A DNA stretch of 36,072 bases from Ruminiclostridium sp. (lineage in GTDB: Bacteria; Bacillota; Clostridia; Oscillospirales; Ruminococcaceae): positions 1 to 36,072 of the forward strand of contig JAGBMA010000144.1 of NCBI GenBank assembly GCA_017635095.1. Reading direction: 5' to 3'. The position numbers were made by a program, and so were the translations under genes. The notes beneath the pieces were generated by a model. The model searched no databases. It saw only the letters and a list, made by a program, of their open reading frames with translations, and was not told the DNA's origin. This document shows, piece after piece, positions 3,411 to 31,239 of this stretch (within the stretch, counting starts at the first letter, position 1; each line of letters begins with the position of its first letter).

Positions 3411-3451
3411 TAATGGGTGTGAGAATTTTTTGTTCTCAGGAGGACTCACTG

Positions 3452-5329: not shown

Positions 5330-5342
5330 CGGAGGAGCGGAG

Positions 5343-6479: not shown

Positions 6480-6497
6480 CGATCTTTGGAGGAAGCT

Positions 6498-16541: not shown

Positions 16542-16591
16542 ACCTTCCATATCGTAAGGATATATTTTGCAATAAAACTGAATAAGAAACA

Positions 16592-16770
16592 TCAGGTGTC
16601 GGGAAGTCTGATATTATCAGGCTTGTTCCGATGAAAAGGGAAACAGGTGAAAATCCTGTACGAACTCGTCACCGTAAACGGGGAATGCTGCGATGATTAT
16701 GCCACTGCCGAATGGCGGGAAGGTTTCGCAGTGTGACGATCTGTAAGCCGGGAGACCTGCCTGCTGTTTG
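16592..16770 (+). promoter_or_regulatory. Cobalamin riboswitch aptamer
   Basis: Conserved elements of the adenosylcobalamin-class aptamer appear in order: GGGAA at 16638-16642, GGTGAAAATCC at 16646-16656, a GTCACCGTAA core close to the family consensus, a GCCACTG segment, and the B12 box GCCGGGAGACCTGCC at 16747-16761. The outer limits are approximate. It heads an operon of corrinoid uptake and synthesis genes, as expected for feedback control by the end product. Confidence 0.92.
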
Positions 16771-16860
16771 TACAGAGAGTGATACTCTCAATGCCGCGAG
16801 TAATCGGCAGTATGGTTTTCAGAGATCCGTTCTTATCGGACGGGTATTCTTGATCGTGCT

Positions 16861-16892
16861 ATGCTCCTGCTCAGGCAGGGGCATTTTCGTTT
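16861..16892 (+). terminator. Riboswitch-controlled attenuator terminator
   Basis: A 10-bp stem (16861-16870 with 16875-16884, one G-T pair) with loop TCAG is followed by TTTCGTTTT. CAGGCAGG at 16872-16879 is perfectly complementary to CCTGCCTG at 16756-16763 in and beside the B12 box. Pairing of those two would break this terminator, so ligand capture of the B12 box should let it form and switch the operon off. Confidence 0.85.
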
Positions 16893-16917: not shown

Positions 16918-17340
16918 TTGAACGACGGGGTATTTACTGTCGAATTGACTATGAGCGGCGGTACGGGAAAAGCGCACATTCTGTCACCGGTAACACTTAC
17001 CGTGAACGGCGGAAAGATGACCGCTTCGGTGGAATGGAGCAGCTCTAAATACGATCTCATGGTGGTCGGAGGAGAGAACTTTTATCCTGTGAACGATGAC
17101 GGCAATTCCCGGTTCGAGATACCCGTATATACTCTTGAAGAACCGCTTCCTGTGCAGGCTGAAACTCTTGCAATGAGCGAACCTCACCTTATAGATTACG
17201 AACTTGTTTTTGATGCCGGGACGCTGAGACCGCTGCATTCGGAAGGATCGTTCCCGGTACTGCCTGTTGCTGCGGGAGCTGCAGCAGTGATCTGCGTTAT
17301 CATTGTTTCGGCTGTGTTGGTGAAAAAGAGAAAGAAATGA
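16918..17340 (+). CDS. Beta-rich domain protein with C-terminal membrane anchor
   Basis: This 140-residue protein begins at TTG (16918), chosen because GGGGGAG lies just upstream and everything earlier is attenuator. Residues 2 to about 105 form a domain beginning DGVFTVELTMSGG and including LTVNGGKMTASVEW. The same pattern occurs at the C terminus of the exported chelatase in this operon. A hydrophobic helix (about 112-134) and KKRKK tail follow, predicting a surface domain with a cytoplasmic tail. Oddly, no signal peptide is present. It is the first gene after the riboswitch and overlaps the binding lipoprotein gene by ATGA. It may help capture a corrinoid or other tetrapyrrole; that is inference from context. 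Confidence 0.65.
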   Translation: MNDGVFTVELTMSGGTGKAHILSPVTLTVNGGKMTASVEWSSSKYDLMVVGGENFYPVNDDGNSRFEIPVYTLEEPLPVQAETLAMSEPHLIDYELVFDAGTLRPLHSEGSFPVLPVAAGAAAVICVIIVSAVLVKKRKK

Positions 17341-18479
17341 AAGTGACCAGAAGGATCGCTGCGGTAATTTGCACGGGTATGATGATAATTAACCTGTGCG
17401 GCTGCAATACCGCAACGGAAGCTGACGCATTGCCTTTGTTTGAAAGCTGCGGAGAACCGCTGAAACTTGAAAACGATATTGCGGAGTGCTTTACGATTTA
17501 TGAATACTCAAACGGCGGTTCGCTTATCGAAACGAACAGCGGCGACAGACTTCTCGTTGTCCCGGAAGGTGAGAAAGCTCCGGCTGTGAACAGTAGCACT
17601 ACAGTGATATCTCTGTCTCCTGAAAGAATATATATGGCTGCAAGCGCGGTGATGTGCTTCTTTGACGCTCTTGAAAGGATAGACGACATACGTTTTTCCG
17701 CTCTTGAAGCGGGGGACTGGTATATTGAAAACGCCCGTGACGCAATGGAAGCGGGTGAGATGGTTTACGCCGGAAAGTACCGTGAGCCGGATTATGAAAC
17801 TCTTCTTGCGGAGGGCTGTGATCTTTCCGTCCAGTCCACAATGACCGAACACGTTCCGGAGGTCAGGGAAAAGCTCGAAGAACTCGGCATTCCTGTGTTT
17901 GTTGACAGATCAAGCTATGAACCGCACCCTCTCGGACGATGCGAGTGGATAAAAGTGTATGCGCATATCTGCGGCTGTCCGGAACTCGGAGAAAGGCTTT
18001 TCAATGACCAGAAAGCCCATTTCGACGCGCTTGCGGTAAATGATACCGGAAACGAAGCGCGGCTGACTGCCGCATTCTTTTATATAAGCTCATCGGGCAG
18101 AATAGTCACGAGAAAGTCCGGTGATTACATCACAAAGATGATAGAGATAGCCGGCGGGGAAAATGTTTTTGATTTCGTCGGAGATGATAATGCGTCATCT
18201 TCCGTCACCGTGGAGCCGGAGCAGTTCTATGCAGATGCAAAGGACGCGGACGTTATAATATACAACTGTACCATAGGCGGAGAGATAGCGGATATCGGCG
18301 AGCTGATATCAAAGAACAGCCTGCTTGCGGATTTCCGCGCGGTAAAGAACGGGAATGTATGGGCTACGAACAGGAGCGTATATCAGGAGATAATGAAAAC
18401 GGGAGAGATACTTACGGATCTGAGCAATATTTTTTCCGGCTCGGACAGCGAACTTGAATATCTGTACAGACTGCAATGA
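17337..18479 (+). CDS. btuF: BtuF/FecB-type binding lipoprotein of an ABC importer
   Basis: This 380-residue lipoprotein has a basic, hydrophobic signal (MKVTRRIAAVICTG) and lipobox LCGC with the acylated cysteine at C23. The mature part resembles class III substrate-binding proteins for cobalamin and iron chelates. Two lobes are linked by a long helix, with segments such as VISLSPERIYMAASAV and EIAGGENVFDFVGDD. It would deliver ligand to the permease and ATPase encoded next. It overlaps both neighbours by four bases. Cobalamin or another corrinoid is the likely ligand because of the riboswitch and operon, but ferric siderophore or heme cannot be excluded from sequence. Confidence 0.85.
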   Translation: MKVTRRIAAVICTGMMIINLCGCNTATEADALPLFESCGEPLKLENDIAECFTIYEYSNGGSLIETNSGDRLLVVPEGEKAPAVNSSTTVISLSPERIYMAASAVMCFFDALERIDDIRFSALEAGDWYIENARDAMEAGEMVYAGKYREPDYETLLAEGCDLSVQSTMTEHVPEVREKLEELGIPVFVDRSSYEPHPLGRCEWIKVYAHICGCPELGERLFNDQKAHFDALAVNDTGNEARLTAAFFYISSSGRIVTRKSGDYITKMIEIAGGENVFDFVGDDNASSSVTVEPEQFYADAKDADVIIYNCTIGGEIADIGELISKNSLLADFRAVKNGNVWATNRSVYQEIMKTGEILTDLSNIFSGSDSELEYLYRLQ

Positions 18480-19483
18480 AAAAAAGACTTATCTTTTCCT
18501 TTGCTCTGCTGGTTCTGCTGCTCATAGTGTTCATAGCCGTGAGCATAACTGCGGGAAGCGTTAACATACCGCCGGAGGAGCTTCTGAGGATATTTGCGGG
18601 AAATCCGGAAAACGAAACTGCTTCCGCTATAGTCCTCAAGATAAGGGTGCCGCGGACACTTGCCGCCGCTATACTCGGCGGTGCGCTCGCATTGTCGGGA
18701 TATATGCTACAGACGTATTTCCATAATCCAATAGCAGGACCGTTCGTGCTCGGTATATCGTCGGGCGCGCGCCTTACAGTGGCACTGGCACTGATAGCGT
18801 CGGCGGGCGGTGCGCTCAGAATGAACTCTGCGGTAATGGTCATATCGGCGTTTGCCGGAGCGCTCATTTCAATGCTTGCTGTATTGCTGATGTCGTCGCG
18901 CATAAAAAGTATGTCGCTTCTGGTGGTATGCGGAGTTATGATAGGGTATATCTGCACCGCGATAACAGATATCGTCGTGAATTTTGCGGACGACTCGGAT
19001 ATCGTAAATCTGCATGACTGGGCGATAGGAACGTTCTCGGGAATGAAGAGCGACGGGCTTGCCGCCTGTTCGATAGTCGTGTTTGCCGCGCTTGCAGCCG
19101 TGTTCATGCTTTCAAAGCCGATAGATGCGTACAGACTCGGTGAGGGTTACGCTGTGGATATGGGTGTGAATATAAAGGCAGTGCGCATAGCCATGATCGT
19201 GCTTTCAAGCCTGCTGTCCGGCTGTGTTGCCGCCTTTGCGGGACCGGTATCGTTTGTGGGGATAGCTGTTCCGTTTCTTGTGAAGATGCTGCTCGGTACT
19301 GCAAGACCGATATTCATGATACCGGCGAGCTTTCTCGGCGGCGGTGTTTTCTGCATCGTGAGCGATATCATAGCGAGAACGGTCATAGCACCCTCGGAGC
19401 TTGGCATAAGTACGGTCACGGCAGTCCTCGGAGCGCCTGTGGTGCTTGTGATCATGTTACGGAAGAATAAAGAAAATGCTTGA
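18476..19483 (+). CDS. btuC: FecCD/BtuC-family ABC permease
   Basis: This 335-residue polytopic membrane protein fits the FecCD/BtuC family, which forms a homodimeric channel with about ten helices per subunit. Family features include LKIRVPRTLAAAILGGALALSG, the stretch NPIAGPFVLGISSGA, and GPVSFVGIAVPFLVKML, which holds the loop contacting the ATPase. It overlaps the lipoprotein gene by four bases and the ATPase gene by eight. It should transport the ligand captured by the BtuF-like lipoprotein. Confidence 0.92.
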   Translation: MKKRLIFSFALLVLLLIVFIAVSITAGSVNIPPEELLRIFAGNPENETASAIVLKIRVPRTLAAAILGGALALSGYMLQTYFHNPIAGPFVLGISSGARLTVALALIASAGGALRMNSAVMVISAFAGALISMLAVLLMSSRIKSMSLLVVCGVMIGYICTAITDIVVNFADDSDIVNLHDWAIGTFSGMKSDGLAACSIVVFAALAAVFMLSKPIDAYRLGEGYAVDMGVNIKAVRIAMIVLSSLLSGCVAAFAGPVSFVGIAVPFLVKMLLGTARPIFMIPASFLGGGVFCIVSDIIARTVIAPSELGISTVTAVLGAPVVLVIMLRKNKENA

Positions 19484-20237
19484 AGTCAGGAACCTATGTG
19501 CAGGATATAACGGGGTCGGTATCGCACATGACATTTCATTCACCGTGAAAAGCGGTGAGATATTCACGCTTATCGGCAGGAACGGCTCCGGAAAATCTAC
19601 ACTGCTAAAAACGCTTTGCGGCCAGCTTCCGCCGGTATCCGGTGAGATCTTCATTGACGGCTGCGAGAAGTCCGGAATGTCACGGAATGCTTTTGCAAGA
19701 ATAGTTTCCGCTATGCTTACGGACAGACCCAAGACCGATATGATGACCTGCCGGGAGGTTACGGAGACCGGCAGATATCCATATACCGGAACTTTCGGGC
19801 TCCTCGCGGAGAACGATAAACGTGCAGTAGATGAAGCCATGCGCCTTACAGACACAACGGATCTTGCCGACAGATACTTCTCGGAGATAAGCGACGGTCA
19901 GAAACAGCGTGTCATGCTTGCCCGCGCAGTCTGCCGCGAACCTAAACTGCTGCTTCTCGATGAGCCTACATCTTTTCTCGATATACACTATAAGCTGACA
20001 TTCCTTGAAATGCTGGATAAACTGCGGCGGGAACGTGATATTGCAGTCGTCATGTCCATGCACGAGACGGAGCTTGCAGGAAGCATTTCCGACAGAGTAA
20101 TGCTCATCAGGGACGGCGTGTGCAAAGGCGTGGGCACTCCTGCGGAGATGCTTGACAAGCACACTCTCACAGAGCATTTCGGCCTTACGGAAGAGCTTTA
20201 CGACAAGTATATGAACAACGTAAACCAGGGTCAATGA
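19476..20237 (+). CDS. btuD: FecE/BtuD-family ABC transporter ATPase
   Basis: This 253-residue protein is the nucleotide-binding subunit. Walker A is GRNGSGKST (34-42), the signature is ISDGQKQR (138-145, a variant of LSGGQ), Walker B is LLLLDEP (158-164), and the H-loop histidine is H196 in MSMHE. It has the usual FecE-type length. It completes the importer with the two genes before it. The exported chelatase gene follows after 30 bases. Confidence 0.92.
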   Translation: MLEVRNLCAGYNGVGIAHDISFTVKSGEIFTLIGRNGSGKSTLLKTLCGQLPPVSGEIFIDGCEKSGMSRNAFARIVSAMLTDRPKTDMMTCREVTETGRYPYTGTFGLLAENDKRAVDEAMRLTDTTDLADRYFSEISDGQKQRVMLARAVCREPKLLLLDEPTSFLDIHYKLTFLEMLDKLRRERDIAVVMSMHETELAGSISDRVMLIRDGVCKGVGTPAEMLDKHTLTEHFGLTEELYDKYMNNVNQGQ

Positions 20238-20267: not shown

Positions 20268-21644
20268 ATGGCAAGAACAACAAAAGCAACGGCAGCGATC
20301 ATGAGTGTGATCTGCACACTTTCACTTGCAGGCTGCGGCGCAAACACGGCATCTACAACGACTGCAGCAGCACAGACGGCTGCTACGGAAACAACGACAA
20401 CGGCTTCAGAAGCCGCTGAAAAGGCAGAAGATACAACGACGACTGCTGCATCTTCCGAGGAGGCGGAAACTGTGAACGAAGAAACATCTGATGTAAAGCC
20501 CGTTATTCTTACCGTAAGTTTCGGTACGAGCTATAACGACAGCCGTGAAGCTACTATCGGCGCGATTGAAAAAGCCATAGCCGACGCAAATCCCGACAAG
20601 GAACTGCGCCGCGCTTTCACAAGCCAGATCATCATAGATAAGCTCAAGGAGCGTGACGGTATCGAGATCGACAACGTCGATGAGGCATTTGACCGCCTTG
20701 AGAATGACGGCATAAAGGAGCTTATCGTTCAGCCTACACACGTTATGAGCGGATTTGAATACGACGATCTTATGAAGGTAGTGAGAGAACAGGCCGATAA
20801 GTTCGACAGCGTAAAAGTCGCTTCTCCGCTTCTTACCACCGACAATGACTATACTGACGTGATAAACGCGATAACCGTTGCGACGGAGGAATTTGATGAC
20901 GGCGAGACCGCTGTCGTATTCATGGGACACGGCACAGAGCACCCTGCAAACGCGACTTACGCAAAGCTCCAGAGTATGCTTACAGACGCGGGAAAGACCA
21001 ACTACTGCATCGGAACTGTGGAAGCTGAACCGTCCATAGATGATGTTATTGCATTCGCAAAGAACGGCGGTTACAAGCGCGTTGTTCTTGAACCTCTCAT
21101 GGTAGTTGCGGGCGATCACGCAAACAATGATATGGCAGGCGACGAAGAAGATTCGTGGAAGACTATACTCACGAATGAGGGATTTGAAGTAGTTCCGGTA
21201 CTCAGAGGTCTCGGAGAGATCCCTGCTATACGCGATATATATGTGGCGCACACCGCTTCCGCACAGCCTCTTTCCGCTGAAAGCGCGGCTCCCGCAGCAG
21301 TCGGCGCAGTAGAAGACGGAACTTATAATATCACTGTTGATTCGAGCTCGTCCATGTTCAAGGTGGTGAACTGTGAACTCACAGTCTCCGGCGGTGAGAT
21401 GACCGCTGTCATGACACTGAGCGGTACGGGTTACGGCAAGCTTTTTATGGGCACGGCGGAAGAAGCTGCAGCAGCAGAAGAGAGCGACTGCATACCCTTT
21501 GTCGAGAACGCGGACGGTGCATATACATACACTGTTCCCGTTGCAGCCCTCGATACACCCATAAACTGCGCGGCATGGAGCATAAAAAAGTCGGAATGGT
21601 ATGATCGTGAGCTCACTTTCAATTCCGCAGATATCCGTGCATAA
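20268..21644 (+). CDS. Exported CbiK-type chelatase lipoprotein with C-terminal beta domain
   Basis: This 458-residue protein has a lipoprotein signal with lipobox LAGC (C23), then a low-complexity Thr/Ala/Glu linker to about residue 75. Residues 77-330 are a CbiK-like chelatase domain. Candidate metal-site residues are E164 (in SGFEYDD), H221 (MGHGTEH) and H284 (GDHANNDMAGDE). The 63-residue spacing of the histidines is close to that of H145 and H207 in Salmonella CbiK. Residues 348-456 repeat the beta domain of the first operon gene (DGTYNITV, LTVSGGEMTA). Location should be the outer face of the membrane. AGGAG precedes the ATG. CbiK inserts cobalt into sirohydrochlorin in the cytoplasm, so an exported form next to an importer suggests tetrapyrrole binding, metal exchange or metal removal. 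That role is inference. Confidence 0.82.
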   Translation: MARTTKATAAIMSVICTLSLAGCGANTASTTTAAAQTAATETTTTASEAAEKAEDTTTTAASSEEAETVNEETSDVKPVILTVSFGTSYNDSREATIGAIEKAIADANPDKELRRAFTSQIIIDKLKERDGIEIDNVDEAFDRLENDGIKELIVQPTHVMSGFEYDDLMKVVREQADKFDSVKVASPLLTTDNDYTDVINAITVATEEFDDGETAVVFMGHGTEHPANATYAKLQSMLTDAGKTNYCIGTVEAEPSIDDVIAFAKNGGYKRVVLEPLMVVAGDHANNDMAGDEEDSWKTILTNEGFEVVPVLRGLGEIPAIRDIYVAHTASAQPLSAESAAPAAVGAVEDGTYNITVDSSSSMFKVVNCELTVSGGEMTAVMTLSGTGYGKLFMGTAEEAAAAEESDCIPFVENADGAYTYTVPVAALDTPINCAAWSIKKSEWYDRELTFNSADIRA

Positions 21645-21660
21645 AATAAGAGAATAAGAT

Positions 21661-22800
21661 ATGCTGAACGAATATGTATTCCGCAGCGGTAAAAAACTCC
21701 GCTGCGGTTATACTACAGGATCATGTGCGGCGGCAGCTTCAAAGGCTGCCGCTGAAATGCTGTTATCCGGGGAAAAATGCGGCACTGTTGAGCTTGCTAC
21801 GCCGAAGGGTATAATGCTGAGTCTCGATGTAGCGGATCCCGTAATTGAAAGCGGATATGCGTCCTGCGCCATAAAAAAGGACAGCGGCGATGACCCCGAT
21901 ATAACGAACGGGACTCTTATTTATGCAAGGGTCTCTCTGAAGCCTGAGGGTATCGCTATAACCGGCGGTATTGGTATCGGAAAGGTAACGCGACCGGGGC
22001 TCGACCAGCCTGTAGGTGAAGCCGCGATAAATTCCGTACCGCGGAGAATGATCGGAGAGGCAGTTGAAAGCGTTGCCGATAAGTACGGATACAAGGGCGG
22101 TTTTGCAGTCGAGATAAGTGCTCCGGACGGAGAACGTCTCGCAAAACGCACATTCAATCCGCGGCTCGGGATAGAAGGCGGCATCTCAATAATCGGTACG
22201 AGCGGAATAATTGAGCCTATGAGCAATGCCGCACTCGTCGATACGATAAGAACGGAAATAAAAATGAGAAAAGCCGAGGGCCACGAAACGCTTTTGTTCA
22301 CCCTCGGAAATTACGGTGAAAATTTTATCCGTCGGGAACTACCGATGGATCTTGAAAAAAGTGTCAAGATAAGCAACTTCATAGGCGATGCCATCGACAT
22401 TGCACTTGAATACGGTTTCCGCGGGATATTGATAATAGGACATATCGGAAAGCTCGTGAAGCTCGGTGCAGGGATAATGAACACCCATTCGTCACAGGCG
22501 GACGGGAGAATGGAAGTGCTCGTCACTTGCGGTCTGCTTGCAGGCGCGGATAATGAGACGCTCCGTAAGATCCCGGAGTGCGCCACGGCAGATGCCGCGC
22601 TCGATATACTCGATGAAGCGGGATATATGCAGAAAACACTTGATGTCCTCGCCGGTCGTGCAGGATATTATCTTGATGCGAAAGTAAAAGGTGAAGCGGT
22701 CACGGGGGCTGTGATGTTTTCGGATATGCACCCGGTGCGGGTGATGACAAAGGACGCGGAAGAACTTATACGGCGTGTTGCGGAGGAATATAATGGTTGA
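21661..22800 (+). CDS. cbiD: Cobalt-precorrin-5B C1-methyltransferase CbiD
   Basis: This 379-residue enzyme of the anaerobic cobalamin pathway uses SAM to methylate C1 of cobalt-precorrin-5B. Recognition is from the N-terminal CGYTTGSCAAAASKAA (15-30), the central NPRLGIEGGISIIGTSGI and the later GHIGKLVKLGAGIMNTHS, all family hallmarks. The length is normal. It is the first biosynthetic gene, 16 bases after the exported chelatase gene, with no strong ribosome binding site visible, and it overlaps cbiF by eight bases. Confidence 0.95.
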   Translation: MLNEYVFRSGKKLRCGYTTGSCAAAASKAAAEMLLSGEKCGTVELATPKGIMLSLDVADPVIESGYASCAIKKDSGDDPDITNGTLIYARVSLKPEGIAITGGIGIGKVTRPGLDQPVGEAAINSVPRRMIGEAVESVADKYGYKGGFAVEISAPDGERLAKRTFNPRLGIEGGISIIGTSGIIEPMSNAALVDTIRTEIKMRKAEGHETLLFTLGNYGENFIRRELPMDLEKSVKISNFIGDAIDIALEYGFRGILIIGHIGKLVKLGAGIMNTHSSQADGRMEVLVTCGLLAGADNETLRKIPECATADAALDILDEAGYMQKTLDVLAGRAGYYLDAKVKGEAVTGAVMFSDMHPVRVMTKDAEELIRRVAEEYNG

Positions 22801-23548
22801 TTTTGTTGGAGCGGGGTGTGGTGCACCGGATCTCATAACGGTACGCGGAATGCGGCTTTTGCAGGCGGCGGACGTGATAATATACGCGGGATCGCTCGTA
22901 AATCCGGAATTGCTTTATCTCGCTGAAAAGGGCTGCAAGGTATTTAACAGCGCAAAGATGAGCCTTGACGAGATCATTGATGTGATACGAAAAGCGGAGA
23001 GTGAAGGAAAACATACGGTACGTCTCCAGACCGGAGATCTTTCGCTTTACGGCGCGCTCAAAGAGCAGACAGAGCGGCTCGATGAACTTGGGATAGGCTA
23101 CAGGATAACGCCCGGGGTAAGTTCCATGTTCGGCGCGGCTGCTGCGCTCGGAGCGGAATATACGCTTCCCGGAGTTTCTCAGTCCGTGATAATTACACGA
23201 ATGGCGGGACGGACGGAAGTTCCCGACGCGGAGAGTATCGAAAAGCTTGCTTCCCACGGCTGCACAATGGTGATATTCCTGAGTTCGGGAATGACGGAGG
23301 AGCTTTCCGGGCGTCTTATAAACGGGGGCTTTCTGCCGGAAACGCCGGCGGCGATCGTTTATAAAGCAACATGGGATGACGAAAAAATTATGCGCTGCAC
23401 GGTCGGAACACTTCACAAAACTGCCCTTGAAAACGGCATAAAAAAGACGGCTCTCATAATAGCCGGAAATGTTCTCGGGAGCGATCATGAGCTTTCAAAG
23501 CTTTATGACCGGACATTTGAGACGGAATTCAGAAAGGCTGAAAAATGA
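22793..23548 (+). CDS. cbiF: Cobalt-precorrin-4 C11-methyltransferase CbiF
   Basis: This 251-residue member of the tetrapyrrole methylase family methylates C11 with SAM. The SAM-binding start VDFVGAGCGAPDLITVRG, the following VIIYAGSLVNPELL, and RLQTGDLSLYGALKEQ are characteristic of CbiF/CobM. The ATG at 22793 is used, with GGAGGA just upstream inside cbiD. An earlier in-frame TTG-type start has no such site. It overlaps cbiD by eight bases and cbiG by four. Confidence 0.95.
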   Translation: MVDFVGAGCGAPDLITVRGMRLLQAADVIIYAGSLVNPELLYLAEKGCKVFNSAKMSLDEIIDVIRKAESEGKHTVRLQTGDLSLYGALKEQTERLDELGIGYRITPGVSSMFGAAAALGAEYTLPGVSQSVIITRMAGRTEVPDAESIEKLASHGCTMVIFLSSGMTEELSGRLINGGFLPETPAAIVYKATWDDEKIMRCTVGTLHKTALENGIKKTALIIAGNVLGSDHELSKLYDRTFETEFRKAEK

Positions 23549-24591
23549 AGATAGCTGTCATCTCTCTGACCGGAAACGGGAGAATATTGTCCGGGAAAAT
23601 CGCCGCCGGGCTCGGGAGCAGGCACAGCGTGACGCGTTTCTGTCATACCTCACACAGCGACGATGATTCTGTCCCGTTTGACAGCCTTAATTCCCTCACA
23701 GAACGGATCTTCGGCAGTTATGACGCACTTGTTTTTCTGTGTGCAGTCGGTATAGCCGTCCGTGTCTGCGCCCCGCATATAGTATCAAAGCTTTCGGATC
23801 CTGCGGCGGTCGTGGTCGATGACACCGGAAAGTTCGCCGTGTCGCTTTTTTCCGGCCATATAGGAGGTGCGAATGCACTTGCCGGAAAGATCGCGGAGCT
23901 CATAGATGCCACCCCGGTGATAACTACGGCAACAGACAGGCACGGGCTTTTTTCACCGGATATCTTCGCAAAGCAGAACAGGCTCGTGATCTGCAATATG
24001 AACGCGGCAAAGGCGGTCGCGGCGGCTGTGGTGAACGGAGAAAAAGTCGGTGTGGTATGCAGATACCCGCACGGCGCTGTACCGGCGGAACTTACGGAAT
24101 GCACCGGCGGCAGCATCGGAATATGTATAACGGATAAAGCAGGTGACAGACCGTTTGATACCACTCTCGTACTGATGCCGGAAAATCTTGTGGCAGGTAT
24201 CGGCTGCAAAAAAGGCACTTCGGAAGAAAAAACAGAGGAACATATAGCAGCTGTGTTTTCGGCGAACGGACTTGATATACGGAGATTATCCGCGGCTGCA
24301 ACAATAGATATAAAGGCTGATGAACCCGGACTTAACGGATTTTGCAAAACGCACGGCATCACATTGAGGACTTTCTCTGCGGAAGAGCTCATGAGAGCCG
24401 AGGGAGAATTTACTCACTCGGATTTTGTCGAAAAGACTACCGGCGCGGATAACGTGTGCGAACGTGCCGCGGTCTGTGCAGGCGGCAGGCTTATAGTCCC
24501 CAAGACCTGCGGCGGCGGAGTGACTGCCGCAGTGGCGGAACTTGCTGTGAATATTGATTTTGAAAGGAAAGACGACCTATGCTTTATATAG
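23545..24591 (+). CDS. cbiG: Cobalt-precorrin-5A hydrolase CbiG
   Basis: This 348-residue protein opens the delta-lactone of cobalt-precorrin-5A and releases acetaldehyde, a step specific to the anaerobic route. Family segments are FLCAVGIAVRVCAPHI, DDTGKFAVSLFSGHIGGANALA and, in the C-terminal half, LVAGIGCKKGTS. N-terminal, linker and C-terminal parts are all present. It starts with ATGA overlap on cbiF and overlaps cbiH by 13 bases. Confidence 0.93.
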   Translation: MKIAVISLTGNGRILSGKIAAGLGSRHSVTRFCHTSHSDDDSVPFDSLNSLTERIFGSYDALVFLCAVGIAVRVCAPHIVSKLSDPAAVVVDDTGKFAVSLFSGHIGGANALAGKIAELIDATPVITTATDRHGLFSPDIFAKQNRLVICNMNAAKAVAAAVVNGEKVGVVCRYPHGAVPAELTECTGGSIGICITDKAGDRPFDTTLVLMPENLVAGIGCKKGTSEEKTEEHIAAVFSANGLDIRRLSAAATIDIKADEPGLNGFCKTHGITLRTFSAEELMRAEGEFTHSDFVEKTTGADNVCERAAVCAGGRLIVPKTCGGGVTAAVAELAVNIDFERKDDLCFI

Positions 24592-25301
24592 TCGGAATGG
24601 GAAAAGGCTCTTACGAGGGCATGACCGGAGAAGCAGTGAACGCGGTCACATCAAGCTCGGTCATAGTCGGCTACACAGTCTATGCCGATCTTCTCAGACC
24701 GTATTTCCCGGACAAGACGTATTATACTACCGGAATGAGGCAGGAGAAGGAAAGAGTGCTGTATGCGCTCGGGAAGGCGGCGGAGGGAGTTGATGTGTCG
24801 CTTGTATGCAGCGGAGATGCGGGCGTTTATGGTATGGCGTCACTTGCGTATGAGCTGGCGAGCGGATTTCCCGGTGTCACGATCAAAGTCATCGAAGGGG
24901 TCACTGCCGCGCTTTCCGGGGCAGCGTTGCTCGGTTCTCCGCTCACCAACGATTTTGCGGTAATAAGCCTGTCCGATCTGCTTACTCCGTGGGAAGTGAT
25001 AGAGAAAAGACTGAAAGGGGCTTCCGAGGGTGATCTTGCAATAGTTCTGTACAACCCTATGTCGCATAAGCGCACCGAAAACCTGCGAAAAGCCTGTGAT
25101 ATCATTTCCGGATACCGACCGGACGAAACGCCCTGCGGGATCGCGTCAAACATCGGGCGGGACGGCGAGAACTGCAGGATACTCACGCTCGCGGAACTGC
25201 GGGATACTGCGGTGGATATGTTTACCACTGTGTTTGTCGGTAATTCCGTTACCCGTGTAACAGAAGGAAAACTTGTGACGCCGAGAGGGTACAGGCTATG
25301 A
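24579..25301 (+). CDS. cbiH: Precorrin-3B / cobalt-factor III C17-methyltransferase CbiH
   Basis: This 240-residue tetrapyrrole methylase contracts the ring and methylates C17. It begins MLYIVGMGKGSYEGMTGEA, and VCSGDAGVYGMASLAYEL and ITNDFAVISLSDLLTPW-like segments (here LTNDFAVISLSDLLTPW) identify CbiH/CobJ. The sequence is a plain single-domain form without the ferredoxin-like or CbiG fusions found in some lineages. It overlaps cbiG by 13 bases and cbiJ by four. Confidence 0.93.
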   Translation: MLYIVGMGKGSYEGMTGEAVNAVTSSSVIVGYTVYADLLRPYFPDKTYYTTGMRQEKERVLYALGKAAEGVDVSLVCSGDAGVYGMASLAYELASGFPGVTIKVIEGVTAALSGAALLGSPLTNDFAVISLSDLLTPWEVIEKRLKGASEGDLAIVLYNPMSHKRTENLRKACDIISGYRPDETPCGIASNIGRDGENCRILTLAELRDTAVDMFTTVFVGNSVTRVTEGKLVTPRGYRL

Positions 25302-26038
25302 AGAAGCTGCTGATCTTCGGAGGTACCACCGAGGGAAGAGAGCTTTCGGAATGGTGCGAGGCGAACGGGATTTATGCAGACGTTTCAGTCACTACAGACT
25401 ATGGCGCGAGACTTCTCGGGAGCAGCGAACTGCTTAATATATTTACCGGCAAACTCGACAGCGGTGAGATGAAGTCGCTGATAAAAGCGGGAGATTATAC
25501 TGCCGTCGTAGATGCCACTCACCCGTATGCAGCCGAAGCTACCGCAAATATTCGTGCCGCCTGCAGCGAAGCGGGAGCTGTTTACTATCGTCTTTTGCGC
25601 AGACCGGCTGAGCTTTCGGGAGTATGTGTAAACAGTATGAAGGAGCTTATACAGATCCTCGACAGCACCGATAAAGTTATTCTCAGCACACTCGGCAGCA
25701 AGGAGCTCCCGGAGCTTGCAAAAGTAAAAAACAGAAGCAGGATATGGCTTCGTGTGCTTCCCGCGGAGGGGATAGCCGAACAATGTGTAAGATACGGCTT
25801 TGACGAAAATCATGTAATTCAGGGAAAAGGCCCGTTCACAGTCGATCAGAACATTGCGCACATAAAACAGAGCGGCGCACAGTTACTCGTTACTAAGGAA
25901 AGCGGTGCAGCAGGAGGCTACCCGGAAAAAACGGAGGCTGCCGCAAAATGCGGGATCAGAACAATAACTATCACACGCCCGAAAGAAGAAGGGCTGACTT
26001 TTGATGAGCTCAAAATGATAATAACGGAGAAAATATGA
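25298..26038 (+). CDS. cbiJ: Cobalt-precorrin-6A reductase CbiJ
   Basis: This 246-residue NAD(P)H-dependent reductase acts on cobalt-precorrin-6A. The N-terminal LLIFGGTTEGRELSEW, the VVDATHPYAAEATANI segment and the C-terminal LLVTKESGAAGGYPEKTEAA are typical of CbiJ/CobK. It is coupled by ATGA overlaps to cbiH and to the cbiET fusion, so the successive steps of ring modification follow one another in the operon. Confidence 0.94.
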   Translation: MKKLLIFGGTTEGRELSEWCEANGIYADVSVTTDYGARLLGSSELLNIFTGKLDSGEMKSLIKAGDYTAVVDATHPYAAEATANIRAACSEAGAVYYRLLRRPAELSGVCVNSMKELIQILDSTDKVILSTLGSKELPELAKVKNRSRIWLRVLPAEGIAEQCVRYGFDENHVIQGKGPFTVDQNIAHIKQSGAQLLVTKESGAAGGYPEKTEAAAKCGIRTITITRPKEEGLTFDELKMIITEKI

Positions 26039-27225
26039 AGATATATATTGTCGGCATCGGCATGGACGGTGACAAGACACTGACAGCCGAAGCAAGGAAC
26101 GCAATACTGGGCGCCGATGTTCTTATCGGCGCGCGACGCATGACAGGGCCGTTTCTCGGACTTGGAAAACCTGTCTTTGAAAGCTGGAGACCGGAAGAGA
26201 TACGGGAGCATATCCTGAATAGCGGCTGCGGTACAGCGGCTGTTCTCATGTCGGGGGACTGTGGATTTTTCAGCGGCACCGAAAAGCTGCTTGAAGCCCT
26301 TTCAGACTTCGATACGGAAGTGATACCCGGTATTTCCACTCCGGTCTTTCTGTGTGCAAAAGCCGGGATCCCCTGGCAGGATATGCATTTCGTAAGTCTG
26401 CACGGCACAGACGGGAACATCGTCCGAAATGTGCGCAGGAACAAGCGGTGTTTTTTTCTGCTTGGGGGCGATGCAGCGCCGGCGGATATTTGCAGGAAAC
26501 TCTGTGAATACGGTATGAACGCGGTAAAAATTTATATCGGTTCTCGGCTCGCATATGTTGACGAATATATTGCCGAGGGGACTGCGGAGCAGTTCACCGA
26601 TATAAAATGCAACGGGCTTTGTGCGGTAATAACCGAGAATAATGAGCCGGAAATGAGCATACCTTCCGGCATTCCCGACGGCGAGTTTATACGCGGCAGC
26701 GTTCCTATGACAAAATCCGAGATACGGGCGGCTGTTGCATCGGAGCTGAAAATATGCTATAATGATACGGTATGGGATATAGGCTGCGGCACAGGCTCGG
26801 TAAGCATTGAATGCGCTCTTTCTGCATGGAACGGAACTGTTATTTCCGTTGATAAAAACGAAGAAGCAGCGGCTTTGACGAGAGAAAATGCAGTTAAATT
26901 CGGCTGCGATAATATACAGGTAGTATGCGGCAGTGTCCCGGAAGTGCTTGCCGGACTGCAGCGGCCGGATCGTGTGTTCATAGGCGGCGCGGGCGGAAAC
27001 ATTTCAGCCGTAATTGGAACCGCGTTCGCCGATGAGAACAGCCCGCGTACCGTTGTGACCGCTGTTACCGTTGAAACGCTCAATGAAGCGGTCTCCGCGT
27101 TCAGGGAAAGGGGCATCGAGCCCGGGATCACACAGATCTCGGCGGTACGCACGAGGAGTGTCGGAAAGCATACCATGTTCGATGCACAAAATCCGGTTTT
27201 CATAATAACGGGCGGTGGAAGATGA
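26035..27225 (+). CDS. cbiET: Fused CbiE-CbiT precorrin-6B methyltransferase/decarboxylase
   Basis: This 396-residue fusion combines CbiE (residues 1 to about 195, a tetrapyrrole methylase beginning IYIVGIGMDGDKTLTAEA) with CbiT (about 205-396). CbiT has the class I methyltransferase loop DIGCGTG at 248-254 and VFIGGAGGN near 317. It methylates C5 and C15 and decarboxylates C12, the work done by CobL in the aerobic pathway. Fusion is common in Firmicutes. It overlaps cbiJ and cbiA by four bases each. Confidence 0.94.
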   Translation: MKIYIVGIGMDGDKTLTAEARNAILGADVLIGARRMTGPFLGLGKPVFESWRPEEIREHILNSGCGTAAVLMSGDCGFFSGTEKLLEALSDFDTEVIPGISTPVFLCAKAGIPWQDMHFVSLHGTDGNIVRNVRRNKRCFFLLGGDAAPADICRKLCEYGMNAVKIYIGSRLAYVDEYIAEGTAEQFTDIKCNGLCAVITENNEPEMSIPSGIPDGEFIRGSVPMTKSEIRAAVASELKICYNDTVWDIGCGTGSVSIECALSAWNGTVISVDKNEEAAALTRENAVKFGCDNIQVVCGSVPEVLAGLQRPDRVFIGGAGGNISAVIGTAFADENSPRTVVTAVTVETLNEAVSAFRERGIEPGITQISAVRTRSVGKHTMFDAQNPVFIITGGGR

Positions 27226-28592
27226 GAAGAGTGCTTATTGCCGGAACTCACAGCGGCTGCGGAAAAACTACGGTGACCTGTGCAGTGCTTGCTGCTCTTA
27301 AAGCGCGGGGGACAGATGTTTCCGCGTTCAAATGCGGTCCGGATTATATAGACCCAATGTTTCACCGCGAGGTGCTCGGGATTCCGTCTCATAATCTCGA
27401 CAGCTTTTTTTGCAGCGACGATACGCTGAAGTATCTGCTTATGGAGAATTCTCGGGGAAGCGATATTGCGGTGATCGAGGGCGTAATGGGATATTATGAC
27501 GGTGCCGACGGGCGCGGCAGTGCTTTTTCCGTAGCTCAGCTTACGGGAACACCTGTGGTCATTGTCATAGACTGCCGGGGTATGAGCGAGTCAATAGGCG
27601 CGGTGATGCGTGGGTTTCTTGAATACAGGAGCCCATGCATGATCGTCGGATTTGTGTTCAACAAGCTGCCGGAGAAGCTTATCCCGCTTGCAGGAAAACT
27701 TTGTGACGAGCTCGGAACGAAGTATCTCGGGTATTTCCCGAAAACGGATCTTACAATTGAAAGCCGTCATCTTGGACTTGTAACCGCGAATGAGATAACG
27801 GATATAAGGCAGAAGCTTGGAAAGCTCGGGGATATTGCAGAGAAATGCATTGATCTCGACGCTATCATGGCGCTGGCGGATAACAAATTCCCGGAGTTCC
27901 GAGCTCCGTCTTTCCCGCAGCTGAACGGTGACGGACCTGTGGTTGCAGTCGCTCGTGATAAAGCGTTCTGCTTCATTTACGATGATAACATAAGGCTGCT
28001 CGAAAAGCTCGGTATCGTGGTACGGTTTTTTTCTCCGTTCACGGATAAAAGGCTGCCGGAAAACGCATCGGGACTGATACTCTGCGGCGGCTATCCGGAA
28101 CTGCATTCGGAAGAGCTTGCGGCAAACAGGGAGATGCTTGACGATATACGTTCCCGCATTGAGAGCGGGATGCCGACCATCGCCGAGTGCGGGGGATTTA
28201 TGTATCTTCATGACTCATTCGAGGATATGGACGGAAATGCTCACAGCGGCGCCGGTGTGATACACGGCAAGGCTTATAGGACACCGAAACTGCAGCGATT
28301 CGGATATATAACGATGACTTCCGGAAAAGACGGACTTCTGTGCAGTTCGGGAGACTGCATAAAAGCCCACGAGTTCCACTATTTCGACAGCACGGACTGC
28401 GGCTCGGACATGACTGCGCGGAAACCGGACGGGCGCTCGTGGGAGTGTGTTCATATGAACGATCATTTATACGCGGGATTTCCGCATCTTTACTTTTATT
28501 CGGATATAGGCATGGCTGTGCGTTTCGCGGAAGCCTGCAGAAAATATATGGAGAACGGGACAAATGAAGACAAAGATATCTCCGCTCGATGA
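27222..28592 (+). CDS. cbiA: Cobyrinate a,c-diamide synthase CbiA
   Basis: This 456-residue glutamine amidotransferase amidates the a and c side chains of cobyrinate using ATP. An N-terminal P-loop (GTHSGCGKT, 8-16) belongs to the synthetase domain. The C-terminal class I glutaminase has nucleophile C323 in AECGGFMYLH and histidine H422 in GFPHLYF. The length is normal. It starts on the cbiET stop (ATGA) and overlaps cobT by 29 bases, the longest overlap in the operon. Confidence 0.95.
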   Translation: MRRVLIAGTHSGCGKTTVTCAVLAALKARGTDVSAFKCGPDYIDPMFHREVLGIPSHNLDSFFCSDDTLKYLLMENSRGSDIAVIEGVMGYYDGADGRGSAFSVAQLTGTPVVIVIDCRGMSESIGAVMRGFLEYRSPCMIVGFVFNKLPEKLIPLAGKLCDELGTKYLGYFPKTDLTIESRHLGLVTANEITDIRQKLGKLGDIAEKCIDLDAIMALADNKFPEFRAPSFPQLNGDGPVVAVARDKAFCFIYDDNIRLLEKLGIVVRFFSPFTDKRLPENASGLILCGGYPELHSEELAANREMLDDIRSRIESGMPTIAECGGFMYLHDSFEDMDGNAHSGAGVIHGKAYRTPKLQRFGYITMTSGKDGLLCSSGDCIKAHEFHYFDSTDCGSDMTARKPDGRSWECVHMNDHLYAGFPHLYFYSDIGMAVRFAEACRKYMENGTNEDKDISAR

Positions 28593-29595
28593 AGAAGCGG
28601 GAAAGCGGGCAAAAGAGCGGTGGGACAGCATAGCAAAGCCCCTGGGAAGTCTTGGTGACTTTGAGGATATTATCATAAAGATAGCTAAGATACGTCATAC
28701 CGAAAACATTCGGCTGAAAGACCGGTGCGTGATAGTGATGTGCGCGGATAACGGGGTTGTGTGCGAGGGTGTGACCCAGACCGACAGCAGCGTTACCGCG
28801 GTATGCACAGATGAGATCGTTCGCGGTAATTCAAGCGTCAATATAATTGCAAAGTACGCGAATGCTTCCGTTCTTGCAGTCGATATGGGAGTCATAGGAA
28901 AGACCGCAGCCTGTGACCGTAAGATCGCAAACGGTACCGCAAATATGGCCGTCGGTGCCGCAATGACACGCGGGGACGCGGAAAAAGCGGTCATGACCGG
29001 CATTGAGATAATGCGTGAACAGAAGAGAAGCGGAACCGATATCGTTGTTACGGGAGAAATGGGGATAGGCAATACCACCACATCGTCGGCAGTATCTTCG
29101 GTCTTTCTCGGACTACCGCCGTCTTCAGTAACAGGACGGGGGGCGGGGCTGGACGACGAACGGCTTGCACATAAGATAGATGTCATAGAACGGGCGATAA
29201 AAATAAACAGACCTGATCCCGGTGATCCCATAGATGTGCTTGCAAAAGTCGGAGGGTTCGATATTGCGGGAATGACAGGTCTTTTCCTCGGAGGTGCGGA
29301 GTGCGGGATACCTGTGGTGATCGACGGGGTGATCTCGGCTGCTGCAGCACTTGCCGCAGTAAGAATAGAACCGGACTGCAGCAGATATATGCTTGCAAGC
29401 CATGTATCTGCGGAACCGGTAGGTAAGATGCTGCTGGATGCGATAGGCGTAAAGCCGGTGATAACTGCCGGAATGAGGCTCGGAGAGGGGACGGGCGGAC
29501 TTATGCTCCTTCCGCTCCTTGACTGCGCACTCGGAGTTTACAATGAAGCACACACTTTTGACGGGATCAGTATAGAAAGGTACAGACCGCTTTGA
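28564..29595 (+). CDS. cobT: Nicotinate-nucleotide:dimethylbenzimidazole phosphoribosyltransferase CobT
   Basis: This 343-residue enzyme activates the lower-ligand base to its ribotide. Family segments include KPLGSLGDFE, VVMCADNGVVCEGVTQ, GEMGIGNTTTSSAV and the end GMRLGEGTGGLML with the catalytic glutamate E308. Its presence points to a benzimidazole-type or phenolic lower ligand attached by this organism. GGAG before the ATG supports the start inside the end of cbiA. Its stop overlaps the TTG start of cobU. Confidence 0.95.
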   Translation: MKTKISPLDEEAGKRAKERWDSIAKPLGSLGDFEDIIIKIAKIRHTENIRLKDRCVIVMCADNGVVCEGVTQTDSSVTAVCTDEIVRGNSSVNIIAKYANASVLAVDMGVIGKTAACDRKIANGTANMAVGAAMTRGDAEKAVMTGIEIMREQKRSGTDIVVTGEMGIGNTTTSSAVSSVFLGLPPSSVTGRGAGLDDERLAHKIDVIERAIKINRPDPGDPIDVLAKVGGFDIAGMTGLFLGGAECGIPVVIDGVISAAAALAAVRIEPDCSRYMLASHVSAEPVGKMLLDAIGVKPVITAGMRLGEGTGGLMLLPLLDCALGVYNEAHTFDGISIERYRPL

Positions 29596-30110
29596 CTACA
29601 CTTATAACAGGCGGCGCAAAGTGCGGTAAATCGCGTCTTGCGGAAGAACTACTCGAAGGTTTCGGAAACAAGATCTACATAGCGACGATGCAGCCCTACG
29701 GTGAGGAAGCGCACGCCGCGATAGAGCGTCACCGCAGGATCCGCGCCGGAAAAGGTTTTGAAACGATAGAAAAATATACCGATATTGATGAGACAGAATT
29801 GCCTCGGGATTGCAGTATCCTGCTGGAGTGCATGGCGAATCTGTGCGCAAACGAGATGTTCCGCTATGATGTGATAAACGATCCCACTGAGCGTATAATG
29901 CGGGGTATAATGCATTTGCAGAATTGTTCGCGGGAGCTTGTCATCGTTACGAACAATGTCGGCTCAGACGGTATAATATACAGTCCGGAAACCGAAAAAT
30001 ACATAGAGGTCATGGGGCGCGTGAACGCGCTTACGGCGGATATCGCCGACAATGTGGCCGAGTGCGTTTACGGTGTTCCTGTTGTGTTGAAAGGCAAATT
30101 ATGTTGTTGA
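29592..30110 (+). CDS. cobU: Adenosylcobinamide kinase / guanylyltransferase CobU
   Basis: This 172-residue bifunctional enzyme phosphorylates adenosylcobinamide and transfers GMP to it. The P-loop GGAKCGKS (7-14) is followed by IATMQPYGEEAHAAIERHRRIR, with H47 as the expected guanylylated histidine. The C-terminal half has VTNNVGSDGIIYSPETEKY. Translation starts at TTG in a TTGA overlap with the cobT stop; no ATG is in place. It overlaps cobS by ten bases. A second, reduced CobU-like gene lies just downstream of cobS. Confidence 0.93.
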   Translation: MTTLITGGAKCGKSRLAEELLEGFGNKIYIATMQPYGEEAHAAIERHRRIRAGKGFETIEKYTDIDETELPRDCSILLECMANLCANEMFRYDVINDPTERIMRGIMHLQNCSRELVIVTNNVGSDGIIYSPETEKYIEVMGRVNALTADIADNVAECVYGVPVVLKGKLCC

Positions 30111-30862
30111 AGTCTCTTGCGAGTGCATTTCTTATGTACTCGCGAATACCCGCTCCGAAAGTTGAGTGGAGGGAGGAGAACCGCAGGTACGCGCTGTGCT
30201 TTTTTCCGCTCATCGGCGCGGTAACAGGCGGGCTGCTCGTCTTATGGCAGTATATATGCGGAATGACGGGGATCGGTAACGCGGTAAATGCCGCAGTTTC
30301 CGTTCTTATCCCTGTGCTTGTGACCGGTGGTATCCATATTGACGGATTCTGTGACACCACCGACGCAATATGCAGCTATGCGGACAAGCAGAAAAAACTT
30401 GCGATAATGTCCGATCCCCACATCGGTTCTTTTGCAGTTATCGGGCTGTGCGCAATGCTGCTGCTGCAGTTCGCGCTGTTCTGTGAGATACGGGGCACTG
30501 CCGTTGTCGCTGTGGGATATGTGCTTTCCCGCGCACTCAGCGGGCTTGCGGCAGTTACGCTGCGTTCCGCCAAGAACGAGGGAGCTTTGCAGAATTTTGT
30601 GAAGCCTGCCCATAAAGCCGCCACGATCACCGTTCTTGCGGTCATCACCGCAATATGTGCGGCTGCGGTATGTGTTATTGATATGCTTTCAGGAATAACG
30701 GTGTGTGCAGCCGCCGCGCTTTGTTTTCTGATATACAGATTTTCAGCATATAAGAATTTCGGCGGTATAACGGGAGATACGGAAGGTTGGTTCCTGCAGC
30801 TTACCGAGACTGCTGTGCTCGCGGCAGTTTACATTTCGGAAAGGATAGCGGTGATGTTATGA
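30101..30862 (+). CDS. cobS: Adenosylcobinamide-GDP ribazoletransferase CobS
   Basis: This 253-residue membrane enzyme joins the activated corrinoid to the lower-ligand riboside phosphate. The acidic motif DGFCDTTDAI (D81, D85, D88) and DPHIGSFAVIG are the family's metal-binding segments, set among several hydrophobic helices. The ATG at 30101 falls inside the end of cobU. Reading further upstream in this frame gives only antisense-like sequence without family similarity. It overlaps the next gene by ATGA. Confidence 0.92.
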   Translation: MLLKSLASAFLMYSRIPAPKVEWREENRRYALCFFPLIGAVTGGLLVLWQYICGMTGIGNAVNAAVSVLIPVLVTGGIHIDGFCDTTDAICSYADKQKKLAIMSDPHIGSFAVIGLCAMLLLQFALFCEIRGTAVVAVGYVLSRALSGLAAVTLRSAKNEGALQNFVKPAHKAATITVLAVITAICAAAVCVIDMLSGITVCAAAALCFLIYRFSAYKNFGGITGDTEGWFLQLTETAVLAAVYISERIAVML

Positions 30863-31239
30863 TAATGATAACCGGCGGAGCGTACCAGGGAAAGCTGGAA
30901 TTTGCAAAAAGGCAGTTTTCGCTTGCGGAAAGCGACATTATGGACGGCGGAAGCTGTGACATATCTGTGCTGAGGACAGCCCGGTGTATCTGCAATTACG
31001 AGCTTGCGGTGAAACGTCTGATCGCCGAAGGAAAAGATCCCCTCGGATTTACGGATAAGCTTGAATGCGAAGTCGTTATAATGAATGAGATCGGCTGCGG
31101 GATCATACCGCTTGACAAGAGCGAACGGGAGTGGCGTGAAGCCACAGGACGCGCCGGCTGCATGATCGCAGAAAAGTCGGAAACGGTGTACCGCGTTTGC
31201 TGTGGGATACCGAAAATCATAAAAGGAGAAAAGAATTGA
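30859..31239 (+). CDS. Reduced CobU-like protein
   Basis: This 126-residue protein aligns with both ends of CobU but is shorter. It begins MIMITGGAYQGKLEFAK, a P-loop with leucine where the serine or threonine should be. It ends with CEVVIMNEIGCGIIP and WREATGRAGCMIAE, matching the C-terminal CobU region. The middle section carrying the guanylylated histidine is missing. Catalysis as a normal kinase/guanylyltransferase is doubtful; it might regulate or partner CobU, or act on another nucleotide. It starts on the cobS stop (ATGA) and its stop overlaps the TTG start of cobC. Clean reading frame and coupling argue against a pseudogene. Confidence 0.75.
   Translation: MIMITGGAYQGKLEFAKRQFSLAESDIMDGGSCDISVLRTARCICNYELAVKRLIAEGKDPLGFTDKLECEVVIMNEIGCGIIPLDKSEREWREATGRAGCMIAEKSETVYRVCCGIPKIIKGEKN

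Follow-up and report, generated by a model that had tools for sequence, protein, structure and literature searches.

Chelatases of the CbiK type that are exported from the cytoplasm are already known from Desulfovibrio and from Porphyromonas, where the protein is named IhtB or FetB. In the excerpted text of PMC545781, a B12 element of Desulfovibrio governs both cbiK-cbiL and btuCDF, and the delta-proteobacteria with cbiK are described as having no homologs of known cobalt transporters, with cbtX proposed as a candidate. For Porphyromonas gingivalis, a CbiK-like lipoprotein, IhtB, is placed in the IhtA-E system in the part of PMC10913741 consulted, and the species is cited in an excerpt of PMC6461909 as being without the steps to precorrin-2. 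The same excerpt predicts a class of precorrin-2 salvagers, which hold corrin genes without early tetrapyrrole genes, a category given as 0.6 percent in the portion consulted of PMC8123684, which cites that figure. The gene described here lies upstream of cbiD in contig JAGBMA010000144.1 of Ruminiclostridium sp. (assembly GCA_017635095.1), and the whole contig, 36,072 nucleotides, is called the window below. On an evenly balanced judgement, this gene would encode a cell-surface cobaltochelatase of the sirohydrochlorin type, the catalytic part of a module for the capture and import of tetrapyrroles.

The solved-structure search of the window protein returned three matches, namely Salmonella CbiK (1qgo), FetB (9b86, entitled 'Heme-binding protein FetB') and a putative chelatase (2xvx), which we take to be a Desulfovibrio protein and, by name and location, its periplasmic CbiK-P; the btuCDF-linked cbiK of Desulfovibrio presumably encodes this same periplasmic form. 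The Desulfovibrio system resembles the window locus in having an exported, B12-regulated CbiK beside a BtuCDF importer, but 2xvx falls outside the clade of surface CbiKs, on a long branch, and we know of no architecture of lipobox, linker and the C-terminal domain D1 described below for CbiK-P. IhtB/FetB is likewise a CbiK-like lipoprotein accompanied by a binding protein, a permease and an ATPase, as at the window locus, but has a TonB receptor where the window module has NEAT-like domains, is filed under heme, and also lies outside the surface clade, though on a long branch. Salmonella CbiK (1qgo/2xwp) shares the CbiK domain and the catalytic histidines, whereas its matched 264-residue chain has no signal peptide, linker or D1. 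The precorrin-2 salvagers share a corrin pathway without early tetrapyrrole genes; the excerpt of PMC6461909 names no uptake route for them, whereas the window module offers a candidate importer and chelatase. An exact-phrase search for extracellular or surface cobaltochelatase and for sirohydrochlorin or precorrin-2 uptake gave no match in the open-licence PMC literature, and no Gram-positive surface CbiK system with NEAT-like domains was named in the titles or abstract openings of the top-ranked open-licence PMC matches.

Domain Organization of the Surface CbiK

The 458-residue product begins with MARTTKATAAIMSVICTLSLAGC, in which a basic start is followed by a hydrophobic core and then by the lipobox LAGC with Cys23, after which a Thr/Ala/Glu linker reaches residue ~75. 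The lipoprotein call is a motif reading (basic n-region, hydrophobic core, lipobox Cys) and not the output of a trained predictor, and the localization rests on such motifs. The CbiK domain covers about residues 77–332, with a Pfam match to PF06180 over residues 80–331 (E 1.6e-87; 293.6 bits against a cut-off of 26.2), while the score against the biosynthetic-CbiK equivalog NF047852, 256 bits, is under the cut-off of 400. In the alignment, His221 and His284 correspond to His145 and His207 of Salmonella CbiK 1qgo, a pair given as important for cobalt insertion in the part of PMC7689651 consulted, and both catalytic columns are invariant in an alignment of 52 sequences. The C-terminal 115 residues (about 344–458) constitute a separate domain, named D1, which has no Pfam match over cut-off. 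The possibility that the protein is cytosolic and its start spurious was dismissed on account of the Cys23 lipobox and because nearly all of the 80 related genes encode signal sequences as well; since most of these related loci carry such sequences, the lipoprotein signal of the window CbiK is not a matter of chance. The window gene is accordingly a predicted cell-surface lipoprotein with a CbiK domain, as the preliminary description had stated when it placed a CbiK-like domain with preserved histidines behind a lipobox and a Thr/Ala/Glu linker.

Gene Content of Genomes with a Surface CbiK

The gene content was surveyed in 148 genomes of the window's family, all at least 90 percent complete and free of the bias of a query holding CbiK and D1, and most genomes in the analysis are drafts or metagenome-assembled genomes. 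A CbiK match was present in 61 genomes (over cut-off in 59) and a CbiD match in 59 (over cut-off in 58, G129 having been dropped for a spurious CbiD match of 8.1e-4 with two stops), and a CbiX match of its own, not inside CbiK, was found only in G007, G033 and G088. The 68 CbiK rows comprise 60 fetched as loci, the window and locus L005, two inside fetched stretches, and those of G007, G073, G088 and contig C16 of G122, which were left outside. Strong BLAST matches were given by 54 CbiK reading frames, namely 22 lipoproteins, two membrane-anchored proteins (G005, G110) and 30 signal-less proteins, and a surface CbiK lipoprotein is present in 23 of the 148 genomes, the window genome included. 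D1 adjoins 20 of the 22 lipoprotein loci versus 1 of the 30 signal-less ones, and a cobalamin riboswitch stands upstream on the same strand in 20 of the 22, not being found in the fetched stretches of G058 and G131. Four further related loci were scanned for the riboswitch, which was present in L006, L012 and L046 and not found in L007. L136, the second locus of G131, is alone among the 30 signal-less loci in having D1-D2 and FecCD next to its CbiK.

Differential gene content was observed when the CbiD-positive genomes were divided into 23 with a surface CbiK and 30 with only a signal-less CbiK (27) or CbiX (3), the latter called signal-less genomes here. The window genome (G000), G009 and G131 were counted as surface despite an extra signal-less CbiK, and in neither column stand G008, G036 and G111 (no CbiK, or fragments) or the membrane-anchored G005 and G110, which have CbiM, SUMT and HemC and no D1, D2 or BtuF match in the fetched stretch. 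SUMT was detected in 5 of 23 surface-CbiK versus 25 of 30 signal-less genomes (Fisher p 1.4e-5), precorrin-2 dehydrogenase in 6 of 23 versus 25 of 30 (p 5e-5), HemC in 6 of 23 versus 21 of 30 (p 0.0023) and the cobalt importer CbiM in 2 of 23 versus 18 of 30 (p 1.5e-4), values that overstate the difference since the genomes are related and the tests ignore phylogeny; counted per genus, SUMT occurs in 5/19 versus 21/25 and CbiM in 2/19 versus 14/25. In these counts SUMT matches under 185 bits were taken as CbiF, except for a contig-edge fragment of G131 that was counted present, as was the partial HemC of G009. CbiM matches under 35 bits were set aside (20 of 42 rows, several of them above the Pfam cut-off of 23.1, including G026, G042, G058, G095 and the second match of G131), as were PF13241 matches under 42 bits among the matches listed, most of which exceed the Pfam cut-off and of which only that of the window genome was checked.

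HemC, SUMT and precorrin-2 dehydrogenase are all missing from 16 of the 23 surface-CbiK genomes, which are therefore probably unable to make sirohydrochlorin. The window genome is one of these, with no HemC match, no SUMT over cut-off and no precorrin-2 dehydrogenase, its lone weak PF13241 match lying in a TrkA protein, and with its corrin-ring genes it has the predicted gene content of a precorrin-2 salvager. The preliminary description had judged cobalt insertion unlikely on the ground that sirohydrochlorin is made in the cytoplasm; this ground is not supported by the gene content of the window genome and of 15 further family genomes with a surface CbiK, while the suggestion that the protein acts on scavenged tetrapyrroles agrees with what the missing early genes imply. 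Furthermore, no second CbiK and no CbiX was found in 20 of the 23 genomes, though CbiD is kept, the exceptions being the window genome, G009 and G131. With no other chelatase of either type in these 20, the catalytic histidines conserved and the genes for sirohydrochlorin missing from 16 of the 23, cobalt insertion outside the cell would be the simplest job for the protein.

The proposed sequence of events would begin with D1, the related small protein D2 and the BtuF-like protein collecting a scavenged tetrapyrrole, which may be precorrin-2, sirohydrochlorin (factor II) or a close relative. The CbiK domain would then insert Co(II) outside the membrane, the ATP-binding cassette (ABC) importer would bring the complex in, ring and cobalt together, and the cytosolic Cbi enzymes would complete B12; in genomes without CbiL, a ring that is already C20-methylated (factor III) may be imported. 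Architecture, operon, fusions, co-occurrence, the conserved active site and the missing early genes make up the sequence-level basis of this proposal, and from them we infer the ligand, the activity and the direction of transport.

Second Signal-Less CbiK Genes and Descent

The second sample consisted of the 50 best-ranked (L006–L055) of the 80 related loci, with genomes whose completeness is not given; L040 and L055 are without D1, and L038, a locus of the SUMT-positive strain 1XD42-1, apparently belongs to the same genome as G120 of the family sample. SUMT over cut-off was found in 18 of these 50 surface-CbiK genomes, which rules out a strict link to precorrin-2 auxotrophy, and two of the 32 SUMT-less genomes (G155, G165) show no CbiF-like match either. 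A second CbiK gene on another contig was detected in eight of the 50, all eight signal-less and all in SUMT-positive genomes (8 of 18 versus 0 of 32 without SUMT, p 8e-5), indicating that the signal-less CbiK goes with the ability to make the substrate. In this sample, the surface enzyme is the only CbiK of the genomes predicted to be unable to make the substrate, and it is likewise the only one in ten SUMT-positive genomes. The window genome departs from the pattern in having a second CbiK without SUMT, an enzyme that may serve in the cytosol. Its gene lies on C185, a 4.9 kb contig of atypical composition (GC 0.452; tetranucleotide correlation to the window 0.727, against 0.90–0.956 when the window is compared with parts of itself of equal size, which have an advantage in such a test). 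The C185 CbiK is nested in the surface clade on this atypical contig, which may represent a recent re-internalization or contamination. The loci L113 (G001), L117 (G034) and L120 (G035), in SUMT-less genomes, have a signal-less CbiK beside FecCD/ABC genes, perhaps for import of a precursor without surface chelation.

A quick tree was built from 146 CbiK domains, and a single group in it, with a Shimodaira-Hasegawa-like approximate likelihood-ratio (SH-aLRT) support of 93, takes in 103 of the 105 surface-labelled rows. This group holds a single signal-less row, that of C185, and sits among signal-less CbiKs, and the surface label requires three changes on the tree compared with 35.9 in shuffles. 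FetB and 2xvx fall outside the group, both on long branches, which suggests that their export may have originated separately from that of the surface group.

The Recurrent Module and Its NEAT-Like Domains

A scan of named genomes confirmed at least 555 relatives, and the counts below refer to the best 80 loci, a set biased towards CbiK with D1 because the query held both. Most of these loci come from Bacillota, and a few bear other names, namely Alistipes (L013), Propionibacteriaceae (L025, L032) and Spirochaetaceae or Treponema (L040, L059). D1 was present in 75 loci and D2 in 69, and btuF-, fecCD- and ABC-like genes occurred all three together in 58, some of the contigs being short. With K standing for the CbiK domain, the architectures were K-D1 in 12 loci, K-D1-D2 in 10, a separate K with D1-D2 in 38, with D1-D2-BtuF in 6 and with D1 in 9, and K without D1 in 5. 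A crude signal test assigned 63 lipoproteins, 14 with another signal or transmembrane segment and three with none. In L083, one of these three, a signal sequence is recognizable by eye; L048 begins at a contig edge, and L029 is without a signal. At 7728–10193 of L019, a single chain joins CbiK, D1 and Peripla_BP_2 (PF06180 E 1.2e-74; PF01497 E 2e-26); as read from its domain matches, this fusion is a direct link between chelatase and importer and strengthens the module. The fusions K-D1, K-D1-D2 and D1-D2-BtuF together with that of L019 indicate that the parts belong together, and the window locus is, on its gene content, one copy of a recurrent module, mainly of Bacillota, that comprises a surface CbiK, D1, D2 and a BtuFCD-type importer. 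Two CbiK domains in one chain, an apparent tandem chelatase, were observed in L006, L008, L031, L053 and L076, and the region ahead of CbiK in L021 and L045 resembles by eye what we take to be an S-layer-homology anchor.

D1 is homologous to the product of the small gene D2 (BLASTP E 8e-9; profile-profile hhalign probability 98.9), and this homology, together with the adjoining of D1 to 20 of 22 family lipoproteins, ruled out D1 as unrelated filler. In a chosen subset of 36 D1 and 32 D2 sequences, the commonest Pfam match of both was NEAT (PF05031), with E of 0.01 or better in 8 of 36 D1 and 11 of 32 D2 and best E-values of 2.3e-5 and 3.3e-5, respectively; the D1 and D2 of the window are not among these members. 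None of five D1/D2 sequences scanned singly reached the Pfam gathering score, the best NEAT score being 23.9 bits against 32.8. Searched against the PDB, the D1 profile found iron-transport-associated chains first, weakly (4h8q, E 0.0015; 4h8p, E 0.0016), and the D2 profile found 3sz6 (E 0.08) and 3sik (E 0.09) first, also weakly, both entered as 'Conserved domain protein' and presumably NEAT domains. NEAT domains capture heme at the Gram-positive surface, and their heme motif is YxxxY. The alignment of D1 to 4h8q keeps the second tyrosine of this motif and not the first, and D1 would therefore not bind heme in the standard way; the D2 alignments stop short of the region. On this weak similarity, D1 and D2 are named NEAT-like and not NEAT. 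The D2 of L013, L021, L025, L041 and L045 is preceded by a lipoprotein-type signal.

Organization of the Operon

The window is the entire contig C79 of a genome of 3.83 Mb in 236 contigs, listed with a completeness of 98.29 percent and a contamination of 4.18 percent. The features of the operon are listed in Table 1; the riboswitch and the complete BtuFCD-type trio (Peripla_BP_2, FecCD, ABC) at 17337–20237 agree with the earlier placement of the gene in a B12-riboswitch operon next to an importer.

Table 1. Coordinates of the cobalamin riboswitch and of the genes that follow it in the window.
Feature	Position	Strand	Evidence
Cobalamin riboswitch aptamer RF00174, heading the operon	16577..16778	+	108.3 bits, E 2e-26
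D2: NEAT-like domain, C-terminal transmembrane segment and KKRKK tail	16918..17340	+	BLASTP to D1 E 8e-9; D1-D2 hhalign probability 98.9
BtuF-like substrate-binding protein (Peripla_BP_2), lipobox LCGC by eye	17337..18479	+	E 5.9e-30
FecCD/BtuC-type permease	18476..19483	+	E 1.9e-73
ABC ATPase	19476..20237	+	E 5.9e-33
Surface CbiK: predicted signal peptide and lipobox, Thr/Ala/Glu linker, CbiK domain, D1	20268..21644	+	PF06180, motif reading
cbiD	21661..22800	+	PF01888 E 1.1e-97
cbiF (TP_methylase; name inferred from score and place)	22775..23548	+	SUMT model 136 bits, below cut-off 185
cbiG	23545..24591	+	PF01890, PF11760, PF11761
cbiH (TP_methylase; name inferred from place)	24579..25301	+	TP_methylase match
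cbiJ	25298..26038	+	PF02571 E 7.2e-62
cbiE-cbiT fusion	26035..27225	+	TIGR02467 and TIGR02469 over cut-off
cbiA (cobyrinic acid a,c-diamide synthase)	27222..28592	+	NF002204 over cut-off
Lower pathway: cobT, cobU, cobS, cobC-like, cbiB, cobD, cbiP	28564..35279	+	profile matches
cbiC (precorrin-8X methylmutase), convergent near contig end	35270..35911	-	PF02570 E 1.3e-74

D2 probably starts at the TTG at 16918, after a GGGGGAG motif, while the mechanical open reading frame starts at the ATG at 16861. The BtuF-like protein has no solved relative at E 0.001 (phmmer against the PDB), and the cobU, cobC and cobD matches score below their NCBIfam equivalog cut-offs. Within 29592–31239, cobU and cobS are followed by a second open reading frame with a CobU C-terminal match (30787–31236), representing a duplication or a split cobU. 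No cbiL was seen in the window, and cbiL is on other contigs of the window genome, where three CbiL-like matches lie on C2, C119 and C185, that on C119 being partial. Away from the operon, a periplasmic-binding/GGDEF protein, a FIST protein and an Fe-only-hydrogenase-like/FeS/GGDEF/EAL fusion stand in a row at 3413–9056, a possible redox-linked cyclic di-GMP signalling system.

Weighing of the Proposed Role and of Its Alternatives

Extended from the window to a large set of Bacillota, most of them from gut and rumen, the proposal is more tentative: the cobalt-insertion step of B12 synthesis may have moved outside the cell, the surface CbiK metallating scavenged sirohydrochlorin or, in species without CbiL, factor III or another C20-methylated relative, and the NEAT-like/BtuFCD module importing the complex, in place of precorrin-2 synthesis and a cobalt-ion importer.

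Several observations weigh against surface cobalt insertion, besides the relatedness of the genomes in the tests above. The 18 SUMT-positive genomes of the second sample include those of L006–L008, the closest kin of the window, and the window assembly itself holds a signal-less second CbiK, 75 percent identical, after cbiL (L005, C185, 2536–3402). HemC, SUMT and the dehydrogenase are also absent from 5 of the 30 signal-less genomes, and CbiM, the sole cobalt importer surveyed, from 12 of them; hemC, SUMT and sirC can be clustered (e.g., on C18 of G004), so that one assembly gap could remove all three, in the window genome as elsewhere. The surface CbiK of G048 and G142 has neither D1 nor D2 alongside, and a visible signal peptide, looked for in the D2 of the window and of L006, L007, L008, L010, L012, L034, L036 and L046, was found in none, a C-terminal transmembrane segment and basic tail being present instead. 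CbiL is found in 14 of 23 surface-CbiK versus 29 of 30 signal-less genomes (p 0.0013; match cut-off 1e-20). Factor II alone would therefore not feed the pathway in the other nine (G015, G020, G028, G070, G083, G093, G095, G139 and G143), six of which (G015, G028, G083, G095, G139 and G143) have cbiD, F, G, H, ET and A in the fetched operon.

The alternative that survives best, though we regard it as rather unlikely, is a module that imports a metal-free or cobalt-loaded tetrapyrrole of the precorrin-2 level, the surface CbiK serving only for binding or handover and cobalt being inserted elsewhere or not needed. Of the five SUMT-less genomes among the 30 signal-less ones, three (G001, G034 and G035) have FecCD-type genes next to their CbiK, so that import without surface chelation seems possible, and 9b86, the structure of the exported relative FetB, is filed as that of a heme-binding protein, but a protein for binding alone fits poorly with the invariant catalytic histidines and with the 20 of 23 surface-CbiK genomes that have no other CbiK or CbiX. 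Quite improbable is an accessory role in the uptake of corrinoids or B12, in which CbiK, D1 and D2 would bind cobamides or cobinamide for the BtuFCD importer and be the Gram-positive equivalent of lipoproteins that bind B12 at the cell surface. The riboswitch and the BtuFCD-type importer would suit such a role, as would the late genes cbiP, cobT and cobU that adjoin the module in L011, L016 and L061, where the corrin-ring genes may be elsewhere; it leaves unexplained the retained chelatase site and the depletion of precorrin-2 synthesis and CbiM.

A slightly smaller chance is given to a surface dechelatase that removes or swaps the metal of heme, siroheme or other rings, metal removal and metal exchange having been among the suggestions of the preliminary description. 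The weak NEAT similarity of D1 and D2 would lend itself to this reading, which has a parallel in IhtB of Porphyromonas, for which the stripping of iron from heme is proposed in the portions consulted of PMC10913741 and PMC13227078. The cobalamin riboswitch upstream of the window operon and of 20 of the 22 family loci speaks against it. So does D1, in which the first tyrosine of the NEAT heme motif is not kept. The least probable is a cobaltophore cycle, in which makers of sirohydrochlorin would secrete it, have it loaded with cobalt by the surface CbiK and take it up again, with no need for an importer of cobalt ions. Four genomes fit it (G004, G015, G090 and G120), having HemC, SUMT and SirC, the surface CbiK as their only CbiK, and neither CbiX nor CbiM. 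Met8-type chelation or other importers could serve in its stead, and no exporter was identified, none having been looked for.

Under the proposal of surface cobalt insertion, the module represents a concrete and testable candidate for the importer of the precorrin-2 salvagers and for their site of cobalt insertion. If it is true, exported CbiKs that are filed under heme uptake, such as IhtB/FetB, would merit re-examination, and gut bacteria would take up an early intermediate of B12.

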